A stretch of 55,165 bases of DNA from Bacillota bacterium (lineage in GTDB: Bacteria; Bacillota; Sulfobacillia; Sulfobacillales; JAIMBI01): positions 1 through 55,165 of the forward strand of contig JAJZWS010000015.1 in NCBI GenBank assembly GCA_021846565.1, read 5' to 3'. Below, in pieces: positions 45,557 to 55,165 of the stretch. Numbering within the stretch: the stretch's first letter is position 1; every line of letters begins with the position of its first letter. Below the pieces are notes generated by a model. It was not told where the DNA came from. It did not search any database and saw nothing but the letters and a program-made list of their open reading frames with translations. Position numbers and translations under genes: made by a program.

Positions 45557-46705
45557 ATGCAACCCGATGGCAGGAGAGGGGAACGGCCTTTGGACATCAT
45601 CCTGAACAGCGACCGTCCCCCGCGGAGTCCCTGGGGCGGGATGCGACACCGCGTGTCGCCCCGCGATCCACGGTGGGCGAGCCTGCGGTCAACTTTTCCC
45701 GGGGCGCCGGACCTGCCGGAGGGGAATTGGTACTGGATGCGCGCCCCGGCCCCCGACGCATCCCAAGCGTGGCGGGTCGCCATGCCGGACACCGGCAGCC
45801 ACGATGGCCGGCAGGAATTCCTGCACCACGTGCTGGCGTTCCCGGCGCTCCACGACCCCTCGGTGGTTCGCGAGCTTGTGCGCCGCCCGCTGGTTTTTTG
45901 GCAAAGCGACGTCCTGTTTGTGTTCTCGCCTCCGGGCGAGGCCGTCACACGGATTCGCTTTGCGGGGAGCCAGGGAGCCCAGAGGTCTTGGTGGCGGCGC
46001 GTCATCAGCACTGGAGTGGCCGTGCTGGCGAAACTGAAGCTCCTGCTGGTGTTTGGCTCGGTGTTGGTGACCATGGGCCTCTATGCCCTGTTGCTGGGCT
46101 GGCCATTTGCCATCGGGTTTGTCGCGCTGATAGCCTGTCATGAGATGGGGCATGTGGTGGCAGCCCGCCGCCGCCACATGAAAACCAGTTTGCCCATCTT
46201 TCTTCCGTTTCTGGGCGCCTTCATTGGGCTGCGTCAACGACCCCAGGATGCCAGCGAAGAAGCGTTTTTGGGCATTGCCGGACCCGTCTTTGGGCTGGCC
46301 GCCACCGGCGTGGCCGCGCTGCTGTGGGCAGTGACGAGCGACCCATTCTGGGCGGCGCTCGCCAGCGCCGGCTTCCTGATTCACGTGTTCAACCTCATGC
46401 CAGTGCTGCCGCTGGACGGTGGGCGCACCGTCGGGTTCTGGCGCTGGCTGGCATGGATTCCCGGAGGCTTGGGCGCCCTGGCCGTTCTGTTCTACCGCCC
46501 CACGCCCCCCCACTGGCAGTTTGACCCGGTGGCCGTGTTGCTCATCGCCTTGGTCATTTGGTCCCTCTCGGTGGAGCCGCGCAACCGACCCGGAGGCTAT
46601 ACCGACATCGGGGCCCGAGCCCGCTGGGGATACACGGCGCTCTGGGCGGCGCTCTTGGCCGTCAGCGTGATTGGCTATGTGACGTTGGGCGCGTACGCCA
46701 TATGA
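45557..46705 (+). CDS. Site-2 protease family membrane metalloprotease (M50)
   Basis: A 382-residue protein. A ~145-residue cytosolic N-terminal domain precedes about six membrane helices. The zinc site is HEMGH at residues 195-199 in IACHEMGHVVAARRR, and the third ligand is in NLMPVLPLDGGRTVGFW. LPIFLPFLGAFIGLRQRPQ and AGPVFGLAATGVAAL are typical of this family. Such enzymes cleave membrane-spanning regulators or process stress proteins. GGGGAGGGG precedes the ATG. No anti-sigma factor is adjacent. Confidence 0.92.
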   Translation: MQPDGRRGERPLDIILNSDRPPRSPWGGMRHRVSPRDPRWASLRSTFPGAPDLPEGNWYWMRAPAPDASQAWRVAMPDTGSHDGRQEFLHHVLAFPALHDPSVVRELVRRPLVFWQSDVLFVFSPPGEAVTRIRFAGSQGAQRSWWRRVISTGVAVLAKLKLLLVFGSVLVTMGLYALLLGWPFAIGFVALIACHEMGHVVAARRRHMKTSLPIFLPFLGAFIGLRQRPQDASEEAFLGIAGPVFGLAATGVAALLWAVTSDPFWAALASAGFLIHVFNLMPVLPLDGGRTVGFWRWLAWIPGGLGALAVLFYRPTPPHWQFDPVAVLLIALVIWSLSVEPRNRPGGYTDIGARARWGYTALWAALLAVSVIGYVTLGAYAI

Positions 46706-49364: not shown

Positions 49365-50223
49365 TCAGTCGGAAGCCCGGTACACCGGGCTTGCTTCGCG
49401 CAGGACGTCCCCGAGGTGGCCCACGGGTCCCAGATGCGCGAGCTTCTCGGGATTGATCACGGCCCGAATCACGTGGACCCGCTCGTCCACGATGGCGAGG
49501 GACTAGGTGTTAAGCACCCTGCCCTCCCGGTCCAAGAAAATGGCGCCTGGCGCCCGTTTAGGGCGTGCTCCTCCAGAACGCCCCCGAGCCGGCCGGCTCC
49601 CACGATGGGCTGCCACCGCAGGGCGTGGGGCCCCTGTCGCCCACGGGGCGGACGTCGGCGCCTAAAACGTTTGCAGCGCGGCCACGTCCCTCGCTCGGAA
49701 GGCGTCGAAGAACCGCCGGGCCAGCTCGGCACGGTTTCCCGTGTCGGCCGGGAATCGCGGGCGGCCCACGTGCAGGTGGCGGCGGGCCCACCGCCAGCTG
49801 GCGGCACGCGGCTTCGGATCGTCCCACCGACGAGGCAATCTCCGTGAATTCAAACCCACACACCTCGCGCAGGACAAACACCGCCCGCTCCCGACGGCTT
49901 AAGCGCTCCAAGATGACCAGAGCCGCCATCGACAAGGAGTCCGCCAGCTCCACCGCACGCGCTGGGTCCTCGTACGGGTCGGTCAGCAGGGGGCCGGAAA
50001 CCAGGGTCCCACGTAGGTCTCCCGGCGCACGCGGGCGGACCGCAGCCCGAGCGTCACGGTGCCCGCCAAAAAAGCTTTGGCCGCGGTGGGCACGGTCGGC
50101 GAAGCGTCGTACCCGGCACGCTTCCTGGACCGCGTCCTCGGCGTCGCTCACGCTGGCCCGCATCCGAAACGCGATGGCAAACCGCATCGGGGCGCACGCC
50201 TCGAACTCCTCCCCCGGCTTCAC
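49365..50223 (-). pseudogene. ECF41-type (SigJ-like) sigma factor, decayed
   Basis: The GTG at 50223 overlaps the stop of the epimerase gene. Sigma region 2 is recognisable (FEACAPMRFAIAFRMRASVSDAEDAVQEA), then in another frame TAAKAFLAGTVT and LRSARARRETYVGPW, and back in the first frame ELADSLSMAALVILERLSRRERAVFVLREVCGFEFTEIASSVGRSEAACRQLA (region 4). The SnoaL-like extension typical of ECF41 is seen in pieces: ELARRFFDAFRARDVAAL, QPIVGAGRLGGVL, and after a TAG, VINPEKLAHLGPVGHL. The frameshifts, a stop and an internal deletion make it non-functional. Confidence 0.85.
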
Positions 50224-51143
50224 GACAAGCCCTCTCGGACGCCATCGCGCCACGAGGGATGCCTCAGCACCCACCCCAGCTCCCCCTTGGGCCTGGCGTC
50301 GGAAAAGCCGCGCCCCTCGGTCATCATCGCCACCGCCACGTCCCCGGCCAGCACCCGGACCAGCCACCCCGGGACGCGCATCGGGCGCTTCGCGCTACAG
50401 CACCCCGCGAGGTGGGGCAGCCACGCAGCGGCAGGAGCAGGTTCCTCGTCGACCCTGTTAACAACGCCCCGCGTCGCCAACTCCACAGCCAGCACGGTGG
50501 CGCTGGCCGCGTCGTCGACAGGCACCCACGAGCAGTGGCCCTGGCGCCCACCCACCACCGGAAACTGTCGCTGGCGCACCAGCGTCACCTGATCATCGGT
50601 GGCGCCGGGGCCGTACAGACCGCCGTACCGCAGGACGGTGCCCCCCGTCCCGAGGACGGCCTCCTCCAGGTGGCGCACGGCCACCATCACCGGCTCGGCC
50701 GCCGTCCCCGCGTAAAGGTCCAACCGAAGAGCCGCCGTCTTCACCCATCCGCCCTGCCGAATGCCGCTCCAGCTGGCGCAGCTCTGCGCGACCAGGTGGG
50801 GTACGCCCGCCGCGGCCGCCGCGGTCACCAGATGATCGGTCCCCTCGGTGCGGAGCCGGTTGGTCACCGCGAACCACCGGTCCATGTGCTTCATATCGGG
50901 CCGCCTCCCCCCGATGGCGGTCATCTGGGGGACAATCACGTCCGGGTGCGCTTGGGCCACCACCTCGCCGACCGCCATGGCGTTTAAGCCGTCCATCACG
51001 GCGGCATCCGCACCCATGTGCTCTATGGCGGCCCGCTTGGCCGCGCTCTGCGTGGTGGCCGTCACCTAGTGGCCCCGCAGCACCAGCTCGGGCACCAGCC
51101 GCCGCCCCATGACCCCGGTTCCCCCCGCCACGAAAACCCGCAT
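50220..51143 (-). pseudogene. NAD(P)-dependent epimerase/dehydratase (SDR), in-frame amber stop
   Basis: The ATG at 51143 follows GGGAGGG and opens MRVFVAGGTGVMGRRLVPELVLRGH, a Rossmann motif. A single TAG at 51066-51068 interrupts at residue 26, where a polar residue such as Gln (CAG) is expected. The same frame continues VTATTQSAAKRAAIEHMGADAAVMDGLN to a normal end at 50220 (about 308 residues). It is the classical partner gene of ECF41 sigma factors (decarboxylase, oxidoreductase or epimerase). A restart at the GTG right after the stop would lack the NAD-binding loop. Confidence 0.85.
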
Positions 51144-51181
51144 CCCCATCCCTCCCGCATCACGTCTCGATCCAATCGTCA

Positions 51182-51208
51182 GACGAGACGGCGCGGCCGG
51201 GTGTGACA
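51182..51208 (-). promoter_or_regulatory. ECF41-type promoter, exact consensus
   Basis: On the minus strand TGTCACA (51208-51202) and CGTC (51185-51182) are separated by exactly 16 bases, the motif I recall as conserved upstream of ECF41-controlled genes. It lies 39 bases before the epimerase start, so the sigma factor would have driven its own operon. The site survives although the sigma gene is broken. Confidence 0.82.
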
Positions 51209-51388
51209 TCGGGCGGCGAGTGCGGGGGGTCGACCAAACACTGCGTGCCTTGGATGCGGCGCGATCGGTGCTGGCGCCCATGTTACACCGCCGGAGGTGC
51301 ATGGCCAGCGGGACCATGCTAGAGTCCAGATATCCCCGGCGCCGTTCGACGGGACGAGACGAAGATTAAGAACGAAAGGGCGCTGAAC

Positions 51389-51843: not shown

Positions 51844-52710
51844 CTAGCCGCGCCCATTAAGCTGCTGCAGCCAGGCCACGACCGCCGGCCCCACGATGTC
51901 CGGCCGCTGGGCGTGCGGATAGTGGCCGGCCTCGGGCACCAGCAGCAGATCCGCCCGACCGTTCCCCACCTGCTCCGCCACCCCCCGCGCCTCCACCTCG
52001 GGATCGGCAAAGTTGGGGTCCAGCTCGCCCATGACGACCAGCGTAGGCACCGCCACCCGTGGGAGCAGATTAGCCGCTGAGGCGTGGCGGCTGCGAGCCA
52101 TGCGCGAGAAGCCGCGGGCGTACCCGGGCCGCCGCAGATGGGCCACCCGCTGGGCGCAGTACGCCTCGTAGTCGGCGGGCTTTCTCCCGGCATAAAGGGC
52201 CGGGAGATACGCCCGCCACGTGGCGGCGGCCCACCAGGAGGCGGTGGCGGTCTGCTGCAGCTGGCGCTGCAACCATCCCCCGGGTGTATCGCGCACCAAC
52301 GGCCCCACCAGCACCAGCGCTCCAACCAGAGGGGCGCGCTCGACGGCCACGACCACGGCGGCCGCCGCCCCGGTCGAACTGCCCACGATCACGACGGGAC
52401 GCGTGGGGACACCGGCGTCGGGGGCTTGCAACGTCTCGATGACGGCCGCCACGTCCAGAGCGGTCTCCCCGTCGCCGTAGCGCGCAAACGTCGTGTCACT
52501 GTCCCCGTGGCCACGCAGGTCCATGGTCGCCACGCGGAATCCCGCCGAGGCAAGATCGGGCGCCAAGAAGCGATAGGTGGCCCGGGCGTCGCCCATCCCC
52601 GGCACCAGAACGACCAGCGGGCCCTCGCCCACCACGTCATAGGCCACGCGGCCCCCCGGCCGCGACACAAATCGTGCGACCGCCAGCGCATGCCGGTCCC
52701 TGTTCTTCAT
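51844..52710 (-). CDS. Alpha/beta hydrolase
   Basis: A 288-residue alpha/beta-hydrolase-fold enzyme. The oxyanion-hole region is VVLVPGMGDARATY. The nucleophile elbow is VIVGSSTGAAA (Ser in G-x-S-x-G). The acid is in VMGELDPNFADPE, and the His in VPEAGHYPHAQRP. DLRGHGDSDTTFARYGD is typical of the family. The start is taken at the ATG at 52710; its ribosome-binding site is weak and a longer ORF reaches 52842. Substrate unknown. Confidence 0.88.
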   Translation of the reverse strand: MKNRDRHALAVARFVSRPGGRVAYDVVGEGPLVVLVPGMGDARATYRFLAPDLASAGFRVATMDLRGHGDSDTTFARYGDGETALDVAAVIETLQAPDAGVPTRPVVIVGSSTGAAAAVVVAVERAPLVGALVLVGPLVRDTPGGWLQRQLQQTATASWWAAATWRAYLPALYAGRKPADYEAYCAQRVAHLRRPGYARGFSRMARSRHASAANLLPRVAVPTLVVMGELDPNFADPEVEARGVAEQVGNGRADLLLVPEAGHYPHAQRPDIVGPAVVAWLQQLNGRG

Positions 52711-52897
52711 GGACCCAATGTCTTGAGATTTGACGGTCCTGTCAATCAGGAGAGGCCAGTCTGACCAGCGGCCGGGGATGGCCGGGGCGACCGCAACAAA
52801 TGACAGCTGGCGCGCGGCCAGGAGAGGCTCCCCGGCCTCCAACTTTCCTGCTCGGTGCCTCGTCCTTCACCTGTTACACTGGCCCAGGAGTGATCGC

Positions 52898-53617
52898 ATG
52901 AGTGCTGCACAGTTCACCGTCGCCCCCGAGATTTTTGACCGTCTGCCAGGTCTGACGATTGTGGTAGCCTGGGCGACGGGCCTCGACAACGACGGGGACA
53001 ACCCAACCGTCGACGACGACTGGGCCTCATCCTGGGCCACCGCGGGCCTCCTGGCCGATACGTTGCCCAATCCCCAGTCCCATCCCCACGTCAAAGCCTG
53101 GGGCGACCGCTTGAAGACAGGCGGGGTGTCCCGCAAGGACTTCCCCCCGTCGGTCGAAGCGGTGCTGCGCCGGGCCATGAAGCGCGGACGCCGGTTTTCC
53201 ATCAATCCGCTGGTCGACTTCTACAACGCCGTCGCGCTGCGGCACGTGGTGCCGGCCGGCGCCTTTGATGTGGGCGCCCTGCCCCAAAACGTGGTGCTGC
53301 GCACGAGTCGTGCCGGGGACACGTTTTGGGCGCTGGACGCCGACGCGCCGGTTCCGGTACCCGAAGGCGAGATTGCATATGCCGCCGGCTCGACCGTGCT
53401 CACCCGCCAGCTCATGTGGCGACAGTCACGGGCCGGGTTGGTAACGCCGGCCACCACCACCGTGCTTTTTATGTCAGAGCTTTTGCCCGAGCACCCGGCG
53501 GACCTGCCGGACCGGGTGGCCGACGGATTCCAGGAAGGCTTCCAGCGCCACTTCGGCGTCGATCCCCAGATGGGTCGGATCACGGCCGATGCCCCGACGT
53601 TCACGGGGACACGGTGA
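52898..53617 (+). CDS. B3/B4 domain protein (tRNA-editing-like)
   Basis: A 239-residue stand-alone B3/B4 domain, as found in the beta subunit of phenylalanyl-tRNA synthetase, where it removes wrongly attached amino acids. SVEAVLRRAMKRGRRFSINPLVDFYNAVALRHVVPAGAFDV is the family core, and LTRQLMWRQSRAGLVTPATTTVLFMSEL lies near the end. The ATG follows CCAGGAG. It overlaps the next gene by GTGA. Free-standing B3/B4 proteins are thought to act on aminoacyl-tRNA in trans, but this is not proven. Confidence 0.87.
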   Translation: MSAAQFTVAPEIFDRLPGLTIVVAWATGLDNDGDNPTVDDDWASSWATAGLLADTLPNPQSHPHVKAWGDRLKTGGVSRKDFPPSVEAVLRRAMKRGRRFSINPLVDFYNAVALRHVVPAGAFDVGALPQNVVLRTSRAGDTFWALDADAPVPVPEGEIAYAAGSTVLTRQLMWRQSRAGLVTPATTTVLFMSELLPEHPADLPDRVADGFQEGFQRHFGVDPQMGRITADAPTFTGTR

Positions 53618-54693
53618 CGACTCAAACATTTCGTGAGGTTGTGGAGGAGGTGGAGCACCACATGGTACCCACGGTGGCGATTCTTGAGGAGGCGGACCGC
53701 GAAGACGAGCACGCGGCACGCGAAGGCCGCGGACGCTTTGGAGCCCTGGTGCGGGCGTTTTTCGCGGCCGGCCTCCCGGCGGACACCGTCATGTACAGCG
53801 ACGAGCGGTGCGGAGAGGCCGAGCACCGGCTGAATCAGGCCGACGCGGTGCTGGTGTTTGTGAACCCGGTGCACAACGGGCAGGACCGCTCGGTGCTGGA
53901 CCCGATGCTGGAGCGGGTCGCACGCCGGGGCACGCTGGTCAGTGCGCACCCCACCGTGATTGAGCAGATGGGCACCAAGCGTGTGCTGGTGGACACTGAA
54001 GCCATGACCTGGTCGCTGGGGGACGCCCACCATCTGGACGGGGGCCCCACGAGCCTTCCGGCGTTCCAGCGCCGTCTCCAAGAGGGACCCCGCGTGTTAA
54101 AGCAGGTGAGGGGCAACGGCGGCGCCGGCGTATGGCGTCTCACGTGGATGAGCGGTGACGCGGGTGCGTCAACGGTGCACGTCCTGAGAGCCACCGACCG
54201 TGAGGGGGGGGCCGTCATGCCGTGGGCCGCGTTTCAGGCCACCATGGAGCAGTACTGGGCCGGCGGTACCTGGGTGGACCAGCCCTACCGGCGGCCCAGC
54301 CCCGACGGCATGGTGCGCTGCTACCTGTCGGGCGAAACCGTGGCGGGCTTCGGCCACCAGCGGGTGGGGGCGCTCACGGCGGGCCCCGGCGAACAGCCGA
54401 TGCCGTCCACCCCGCGGCAGTACTCACCGCCCACCGACCCACGCTTCCAGGGGCTTCGTGCGCGCATGGAGCGCGAGTGGGTCCCCGCGCTGCTGGACGC
54501 GGTCCATCTGGACGCCGATGACCTCCCGGTGATTTGGGACGCAGACTTTTTCTGGGATCGGCCGGCCAGGGGACCCGAGCGGTTTGGTCTCTGCGAGATC
54601 AATGCGAGCGCCGTGCATCCGTATCCCGACGCGGCCATCTCCCCCATGGTGGCCGCCACCCAGCAACGCCTGTCGTCCGCCGCCCGCGCATGA
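53614..54693 (+). CDS. Cj0069-family ATP-grasp-like protein
   Basis: A 359-residue protein. VLKQVRGNGGAGVWRLTW resembles an ATP-grasp nucleotide loop and matches the Cj0069 family (LKQxRGxxGxGxWRV). LPVIWDADFFWDRP and FGLCEINASAVHPYPDAAI carry the Asp and Glu-x-Asn metal ligands near the C-terminus. ATP-grasp enzymes join a carboxylate to an amine or thiol. The GTG start overlaps the B3/B4 gene, and the next gene overlaps by ATGA. The substrate is unknown. Confidence 0.82.
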   Translation: MTTQTFREVVEEVEHHMVPTVAILEEADREDEHAAREGRGRFGALVRAFFAAGLPADTVMYSDERCGEAEHRLNQADAVLVFVNPVHNGQDRSVLDPMLERVARRGTLVSAHPTVIEQMGTKRVLVDTEAMTWSLGDAHHLDGGPTSLPAFQRRLQEGPRVLKQVRGNGGAGVWRLTWMSGDAGASTVHVLRATDREGGAVMPWAAFQATMEQYWAGGTWVDQPYRRPSPDGMVRCYLSGETVAGFGHQRVGALTAGPGEQPMPSTPRQYSPPTDPRFQGLRARMEREWVPALLDAVHLDADDLPVIWDADFFWDRPARGPERFGLCEINASAVHPYPDAAISPMVAATQQRLSSAARA

Positions 54694-55149
54694 CCGCCCA
54701 GCGCCAGCTGACATGGTTCGCCGACCACGCCGCCGAGGGCCGCCCGGCGCCCCCCACGCGCGCGTTGGTGGTGTGCGAGCCGCATGCGCAGCATCGTGTC
54801 TGGCATAAAGACGTGGGAAATGCGAGGCCGGGCCACCCGGATTCGCGGAGCCATTGGGATCATTGCGGGCGGCACGGGCACCATCGTGGGGGTGGCCACC
54901 CTCGTCGACTGTCTCGGCCCGCTGGACCTGAGAGAGTATTACGGGGGTTGGCGCCAGCGGGGGGCGGACGCGCCAGCCTACAACCCGCTCCCCTATGCCA
55001 CCACCTACGCCTGGGTGCTGGCTTATGCGCGGCGGGCATCCCGGGTGGTGCCCTATCACCATCCGTCGGGAGCGGTCGTCTGGGTATCCCTGAGCCCTGA
55101 TGCCGCGCGCGCTGTGGCCGCTGCCGTGGGGGATCCAGCGAGCGTGTGA
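54690..55149 (+). pseudogene. ASCH-domain protein, one frameshift
   Basis: The ATG at 54690 overlaps the ATP-grasp stop. The first frame (TWFADHAAEGRPAPPTRALVVCEPH) is joined near 54785 to the next frame MRSIVSGIKTWEMRGRATRIRGAIGIIAGGTGTIVGVATLVDCLGPL, a clear ASCH domain (a PUA-like fold expected to bind RNA). The C-terminus (YATTYAWVLAYARRASRVVPY) fits the family. Restoring one base gives a protein of about 153 residues. Because the lesion is single, an error in the sequence is plausible. Confidence 0.8.
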
Positions 55150-55165
55150 GGATCCGCCGCGCACG

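Follow-up and report, generated by a model that had tools for sequence, protein, structure and literature searches.

Among the closest described relatives of the first gene in this locus is CtdA, a stand-alone trans-editing enzyme that removes canavanine from canavanyl-tRNA(Arg) (PMC10018355). Canavanyl-tRNA is likewise a substrate of a distant Clostridium homologue that is 35% identical to CtdA (PMC10018355). The window analyzed here (the whole stretch of DNA, 55,165 nucleotides) corresponds to contig C93 in a draft genome (G000) that totals 3.4 Mb over 134 contigs, and it carries three successive genes on the plus strand that encode a B3/4-domain protein, an ATP-grasp protein of the Cj0069/DUF6815 family and an ASCH-domain protein. 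In our best reading, the locus places a trans-editing deacylase beside a partly decaying, mobile cassette of ligase and ASCH genes. A locus 92% identical to that of the window was found in a metagenome-assembled Bacillota genome. The genus was sampled with four genomes, namely that of the window, its sister G002, G003 and the diverged congener G001, and two contigs of this sample end within the cluster. The window contig itself ends at position 55165, 16 bases past the ASCH gene, so the sequence 3' of ASCH is unreadable. The features of the locus are as follows.

51847 to 52710, minus strand: alpha/beta hydrolase gene, divergent, upstream of the B3/4 gene (Pfam Abhydrolase_6, E 8e-23)
52898 to 53617, plus strand: stand-alone B3/4-domain protein of 239 aa, predicted trans-editing aminoacyl-tRNA deacylase and CtdA homologue
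53614 to 53661, plus strand: 16 codons from a GTG that would extend the ATP-grasp protein N-terminally, probably not coding
53652 to 53655, plus strand: GGAG, candidate ribosome-binding site for the ATG at 53662; the same GGAG precedes the corresponding ATG of G003
53662 to 54693, plus strand: Cj0069-family/DUF6815 protein, probable glutathione-synthetase-type ATP-grasp ligase, 343 aa from the ATG at 53662
54690 to 55149, plus strand: ASCH-domain gene of the TTHA0113 type, interrupted by a 2-base gap near 54790, with the C-terminal part (54784 to 55149) in another frame

Family assignments of the three genes

The family assignments of the first-pass annotation (B3/4, Cj0069-like ATP-grasp and ASCH) hold for all three genes. 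The B3/4 frame runs from the ATG at 52898 to the TGA at 53615-53617, and its product matches Pfam B3_4 with 63.3 bits (cut-off 29.3, E 2.8e-17). Among PDB entries, the single sequence matches 9mkl (E 1.5e-16) and CtdA (9f7e, E 6e-13), and the profile matches both about equally well (1.3e-44 and 1.5e-44, respectively), with the PheRS beta subunit (3e-6) behind both. As judged from substitution rates, the gene is under purifying selection, with omega values of 0.12-0.17 against three congeners.

Both CtdA matches, and the activity of the distant Clostridium homologue, would fit a true CtdA, i.e., a canavanyl-tRNA(Arg) deacylase whose neighbors are incidental, but other observations make this identity distinctly unlikely. 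No Rfam family, riboswitch or other RNA, reaches its gathering score upstream of B3/4 or anywhere else in the window. Reading by eye, we recognized no canavanine-degradation genes among the open reading frames of the window, up to the contig end at 55165, and the best full-length plasmid relatives of the protein, from Streptomyces and Deinococcus, have different neighbors.

The ATP-grasp frame ends at the TGA at 54691-54693. Its product scores 245.7 bits against NF033816 (cut-off 150) and 88.2 bits against DUF6815 (PF20668), the latter being the only Pfam family with a useful E-value. An HMMER profile search of the PDB returned no relatives, and a single-sequence AlphaFold2 model was uninformative (pLDDT 34.6). 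Comparison by hhalign with single E. coli sequences gave weak values for GshB (0.0024), RimK (0.006) and DdlB (0.066), next to 0.08-0.24 for controls, and therefore an alignment of GshB was built. Against the resulting profile, the Cj0069 profile aligned over 196 columns with a probability of 95.9% and an E-value of 5.5e-9, as compared to 0.026-0.33 for control profiles, and the alignment pairs the ATP-binding lysine and the Gly-rich loop of both families. The lysine and the Gly-rich loop are found throughout an alignment of 16 Cj0069 sequences, the lysine being invariant, together with an equally invariant E-I-N motif near the end, which is similar to columns E281/N283 of GshB and lies outside the hhalign block. 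These profile comparisons support the assignment of the Cj0069 family to the glutathione-synthetase type of ATP-grasp proteins. The omega value of the gene is 0.40 against G002. A phage origin of the gene was rejected, as searches of phage records and viral contigs gave no match.

The C-terminal part of the ASCH gene matches PF04266 with 23.4 bits (cut-off 21.2), and the GxKxxExR motif of the domain is present as SGIKTWEMR. In the PDB it matches 2dp9 and 1wk2, both TTHA0113 (E about 3.5e-10). The same part also matches a stretch of proteins annotated as DruA (Druantia) on Piscirickettsia plasmids (H68-H76), and the closest plasmid ASCH gene, on pSC2 of Paenibacillus polymyxa (L076), adjoins genes for a DUF262 protein and an MjaI-family restriction endonuclease.

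Gene starts, overlaps and lesions

The first-pass annotation described the three genes as translationally coupled through overlaps of four bases. Both overlaps are present in the DNA, and the one between the ATP-grasp and ASCH genes is supported, being kept as ATGA (54690-54693) in the window and in G002, and as TAATG in the diverged G001. The GTGA overlap between the B3/4 and ATP-grasp genes (53614-53617) is likewise found in the window and in G002, where the extension frame from the GTG is open as well. In G003, the ATP-grasp frame contains a stop between the position of this GTG and the ATG that matches the window ATG at 53662, and the match to the NF033816 model sets in at residue 20 when the protein is read from the GTG. 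For these two reasons the ATP-grasp protein more probably starts at the ATG at 53662, 44 nt past the stop of B3/4, than at the GTG, and given the in-frame stop in the congener, translational coupling of B3/4 with the ATP-grasp gene is doubtful. No terminator clearly above chance was detected between these two genes, and no sigma-70 promoter was found by consensus. As the two genes are adjacent in three congeners and no clear terminator separates them, they may still be co-transcribed and functionally linked.

ASCH begins with the ATG at 54690. Roughly the first 34 codons share one frame, and the conserved part (54784-55149) occupies another. Alignment with G002, whose ASCH frame is open across this site up to the end of its contig, places a gap of two bases near 54790, and the frameshift noted previously is thus real in this assembly. 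Sequence comparison does not separate a base-calling error from a mutation at this position, the two possibilities raised previously. An error of sequencing or assembly, with an intact gene in the living organism, would be in line with the open frame of the sister genome and with the draft status of both assemblies, yet it appears the less probable explanation, since the ASCH lesion of G001 is of another kind (an in-frame TAG) and is preceded by two frameshifts in the ATP-grasp gene (contig C65, L011 5573-7036), and since two more genes of the window are broken within 5.5 kb upstream. The independent lesion in G001 and the two broken neighbors therefore favor real decay over an error in a draft assembly.

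These two neighbors together span positions 49574-51317 of the window. An SDR/epimerase gene (about 50.2-51.3 kb) is broken by an in-frame TGA relative to G003 (L013), and an ECF sigma factor gene (about 49.6-50.4 kb) is frameshifted, matching its G003 homologue (L013) in several frames. The ATP-grasp gene of G034 (L015) is also split into two frames. Elsewhere in the window genome, positions 1-283 of contig C112 (L051) hold a partial copy of the B3/4 upstream region and the first 32 codons, running into another coding sequence; this copy has 81% DNA identity to positions 52861-52987 of the window, and the same contig matches positions 45563-46705 at 80%.

Distribution and neighborhoods of the three families

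Within the genus sample, the B3/4 gene adjoins the ATP-grasp gene in three of four genomes (G000, G002 and G003), an adjacency that persists up to a dS of 0.46 for B3/4. In G001, B3/4 is located on contig C11 beside the divergent hydrolase, and the ATP-grasp and ASCH genes, both broken, are on contig C65. This separation points to distinct histories of two units, and the stop-start overlap of the ATP-grasp and ASCH genes in G000, G002 and G001 argues for the coherence of the second of these as a cassette.

Beyond the genus, B3/4 matches are present in 10 of 42 genomes of the order and ASCH matches in 15 of 42, 6 of 41 relatives in the order have the ATP-grasp gene, and NF033816 matches occur in 10 of 154 genomes of the class. 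For other phyla, the search covered plasmid and phage records as well as a single scan of genome contigs. When co-occurrence of the three families was examined, no B3/4 or ASCH match was detected beside the ATP-grasp gene in eight other Bacillota loci (L014, L015, L042, L043, L089-L092), nor within 5-6 kb of it in 12 plasmid loci, and in G030 and G034 the ATP-grasp and ASCH genes are on separate contigs. Within what was searched, co-localization of the three genes is thus confined to one genus. The proposal that they form one aminoacyl-tRNA quality-control unit finds no support in these data, and the split in G001, the separate contigs of G030 and G034 and the 12 plasmid loci largely refute it as a general arrangement beyond the genus.

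The alpha/beta hydrolase was considered as the true partner of B3/4. The pair is found in G000, in G002 and in G001, where neither the ATP-grasp nor the ASCH gene adjoins it, and the window hydrolase has identities of 82% and 65% to its counterparts in L012 and L050. No match was obtained in the G003 locus (L013), so the hydrolase is absent beside B3/4 there, and the hydrolases that adjoin B3/4 in G004 and G006 did not match that of the window; a partnership was not adopted for these reasons. In G004 (L055) the hydrolase gene is directly upstream of B3/4, and in G006 (L056 197-1737), from another genus within the same family, the B3/4 start and a further alpha/beta hydrolase gene share four bases.

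ATP-grasp genes of this family are present in 25 plasmid records. In 9 of the 12 plasmid loci inspected (L023, L025-L030, L105, L107), ChrA and/or ChrB are encoded within 5-6 kb, although these are not all independent events, as a single element recurs in nearly identical form in several of the Sphingomonad records. On Ti plasmids of Agrobacterium and Rhizobium (two cases) chrA overlaps the ATP-grasp gene by four bases. Neighbors in such chromate loci include chrA and genes for ChrB-domain, Fe-Mn superoxide dismutase and DUF1259 proteins, of which only the last two are present in L024. A decayed Bacillota locus (L044, G185:C67) has a ChrB match too. Among the hits of the window there are no chromate genes.

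A joint role of the three genes was also weighed in the light of these neighborhoods. They might constitute one aminoacyl-tRNA quality-control or stress unit, in which the ligase would make or use an unusual amino acid or peptide, the B3/4 protein would clear tRNA mischarged with this compound and the ASCH protein would handle RNA. In yeast, chromium induces mistranslation in an oxygen-dependent manner (PMC2246270), and oxidation of amino-acid pools is reported to lead to mistranslation in E. coli (PMC4066437). Such a documented connection of chromate or oxidative stress to translation errors would make a joint role possible, and the adjacency of B3/4 and the ATP-grasp gene in three of the four genomes agrees with it. 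In contrast, neither the three-gene arrangement nor the B3/4-ATP-grasp pair was found outside the genus, G001 has B3/4 apart from the ATP-grasp and ASCH genes, both genomes that are readable to the end of ASCH have it in broken form, and no chromate genes are among the hits of the window. We therefore regard a single unit as unlikely.

Interpretation and comparison with known systems

Overall, the locus is probably a genus-restricted juxtaposition of two units rather than a conserved three-part system, and it looks like a recent local arrangement. The first unit would be the B3/4 protein, which by analogy with CtdA and the PheRS editing domain may bind mischarged aminoacyl-tRNA and hydrolyze its ester bond. 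The second would be the two-gene cassette with overlapping stop and start, the ATP-grasp gene followed by ASCH. By homology, the ATP-grasp protein would form an acyl-phosphate from a carboxylate and ligate this to an amine. Its product would most plausibly be a small peptide or thiol for metal or oxidative stress, a link to stress metabolism suggested by the recurrence of its relatives in the chromate-resistance loci of other bacteria. The ASCH protein, whose gene is broken here, may bind RNA or a modified nucleoside, as is presumed from its domain.

A more speculative extension, in which we place little confidence, is that in this genus a GshB-like ligase was recruited together with the B3/4 deacylase, and formerly with ASCH, as a stress unit that limits mistranslation from amino-acid analogues made by metals or oxidation, and that Cj0069 ligases are a general, unrecognized component of chromate and oxidative resistance. 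If the genes do act together, tRNA proofreading would be joined to an ATP-dependent ligase, a combination undescribed in the literature that we found. Even if the arrangement is due to chance, the uncharacterized Cj0069/DUF6815 family gains a probable chemistry, that of the glutathione-synthetase-type ATP-grasp proteins, and, through the repeated location of its plasmid relatives in chromate-resistance loci, a role that can be tested.

In comparison with known systems, the B3/4 protein shares with CtdA its stand-alone organization, its length of about 230-240 aa and the profile match reported above, although the single-sequence match to 9f7e is limited to residues 62-217. Unlike CtdA, it is encoded with no guanidine riboswitch or canavanine operon in sight, though not all CtdA genes have the riboswitch. 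The ATP-grasp protein is a full-length member of the Cj0069 family (NF033816, with DUF6815, PF20668) above the curated cut-off; relative to GshB, its C-terminal third, corresponding to DUF6815, is left unaligned by hhalign. Whereas genes of this family elsewhere are often part of chromate-resistance loci, that of the window is located between B3/4 and ASCH. Finally, the match to TTHA0113 of Thermus thermophilus (2dp9/1wk2) covers residues 4-104 in the C-terminal part of ASCH, and the window gene differs in being frameshifted; TTHA0113 is itself a hypothetical protein.
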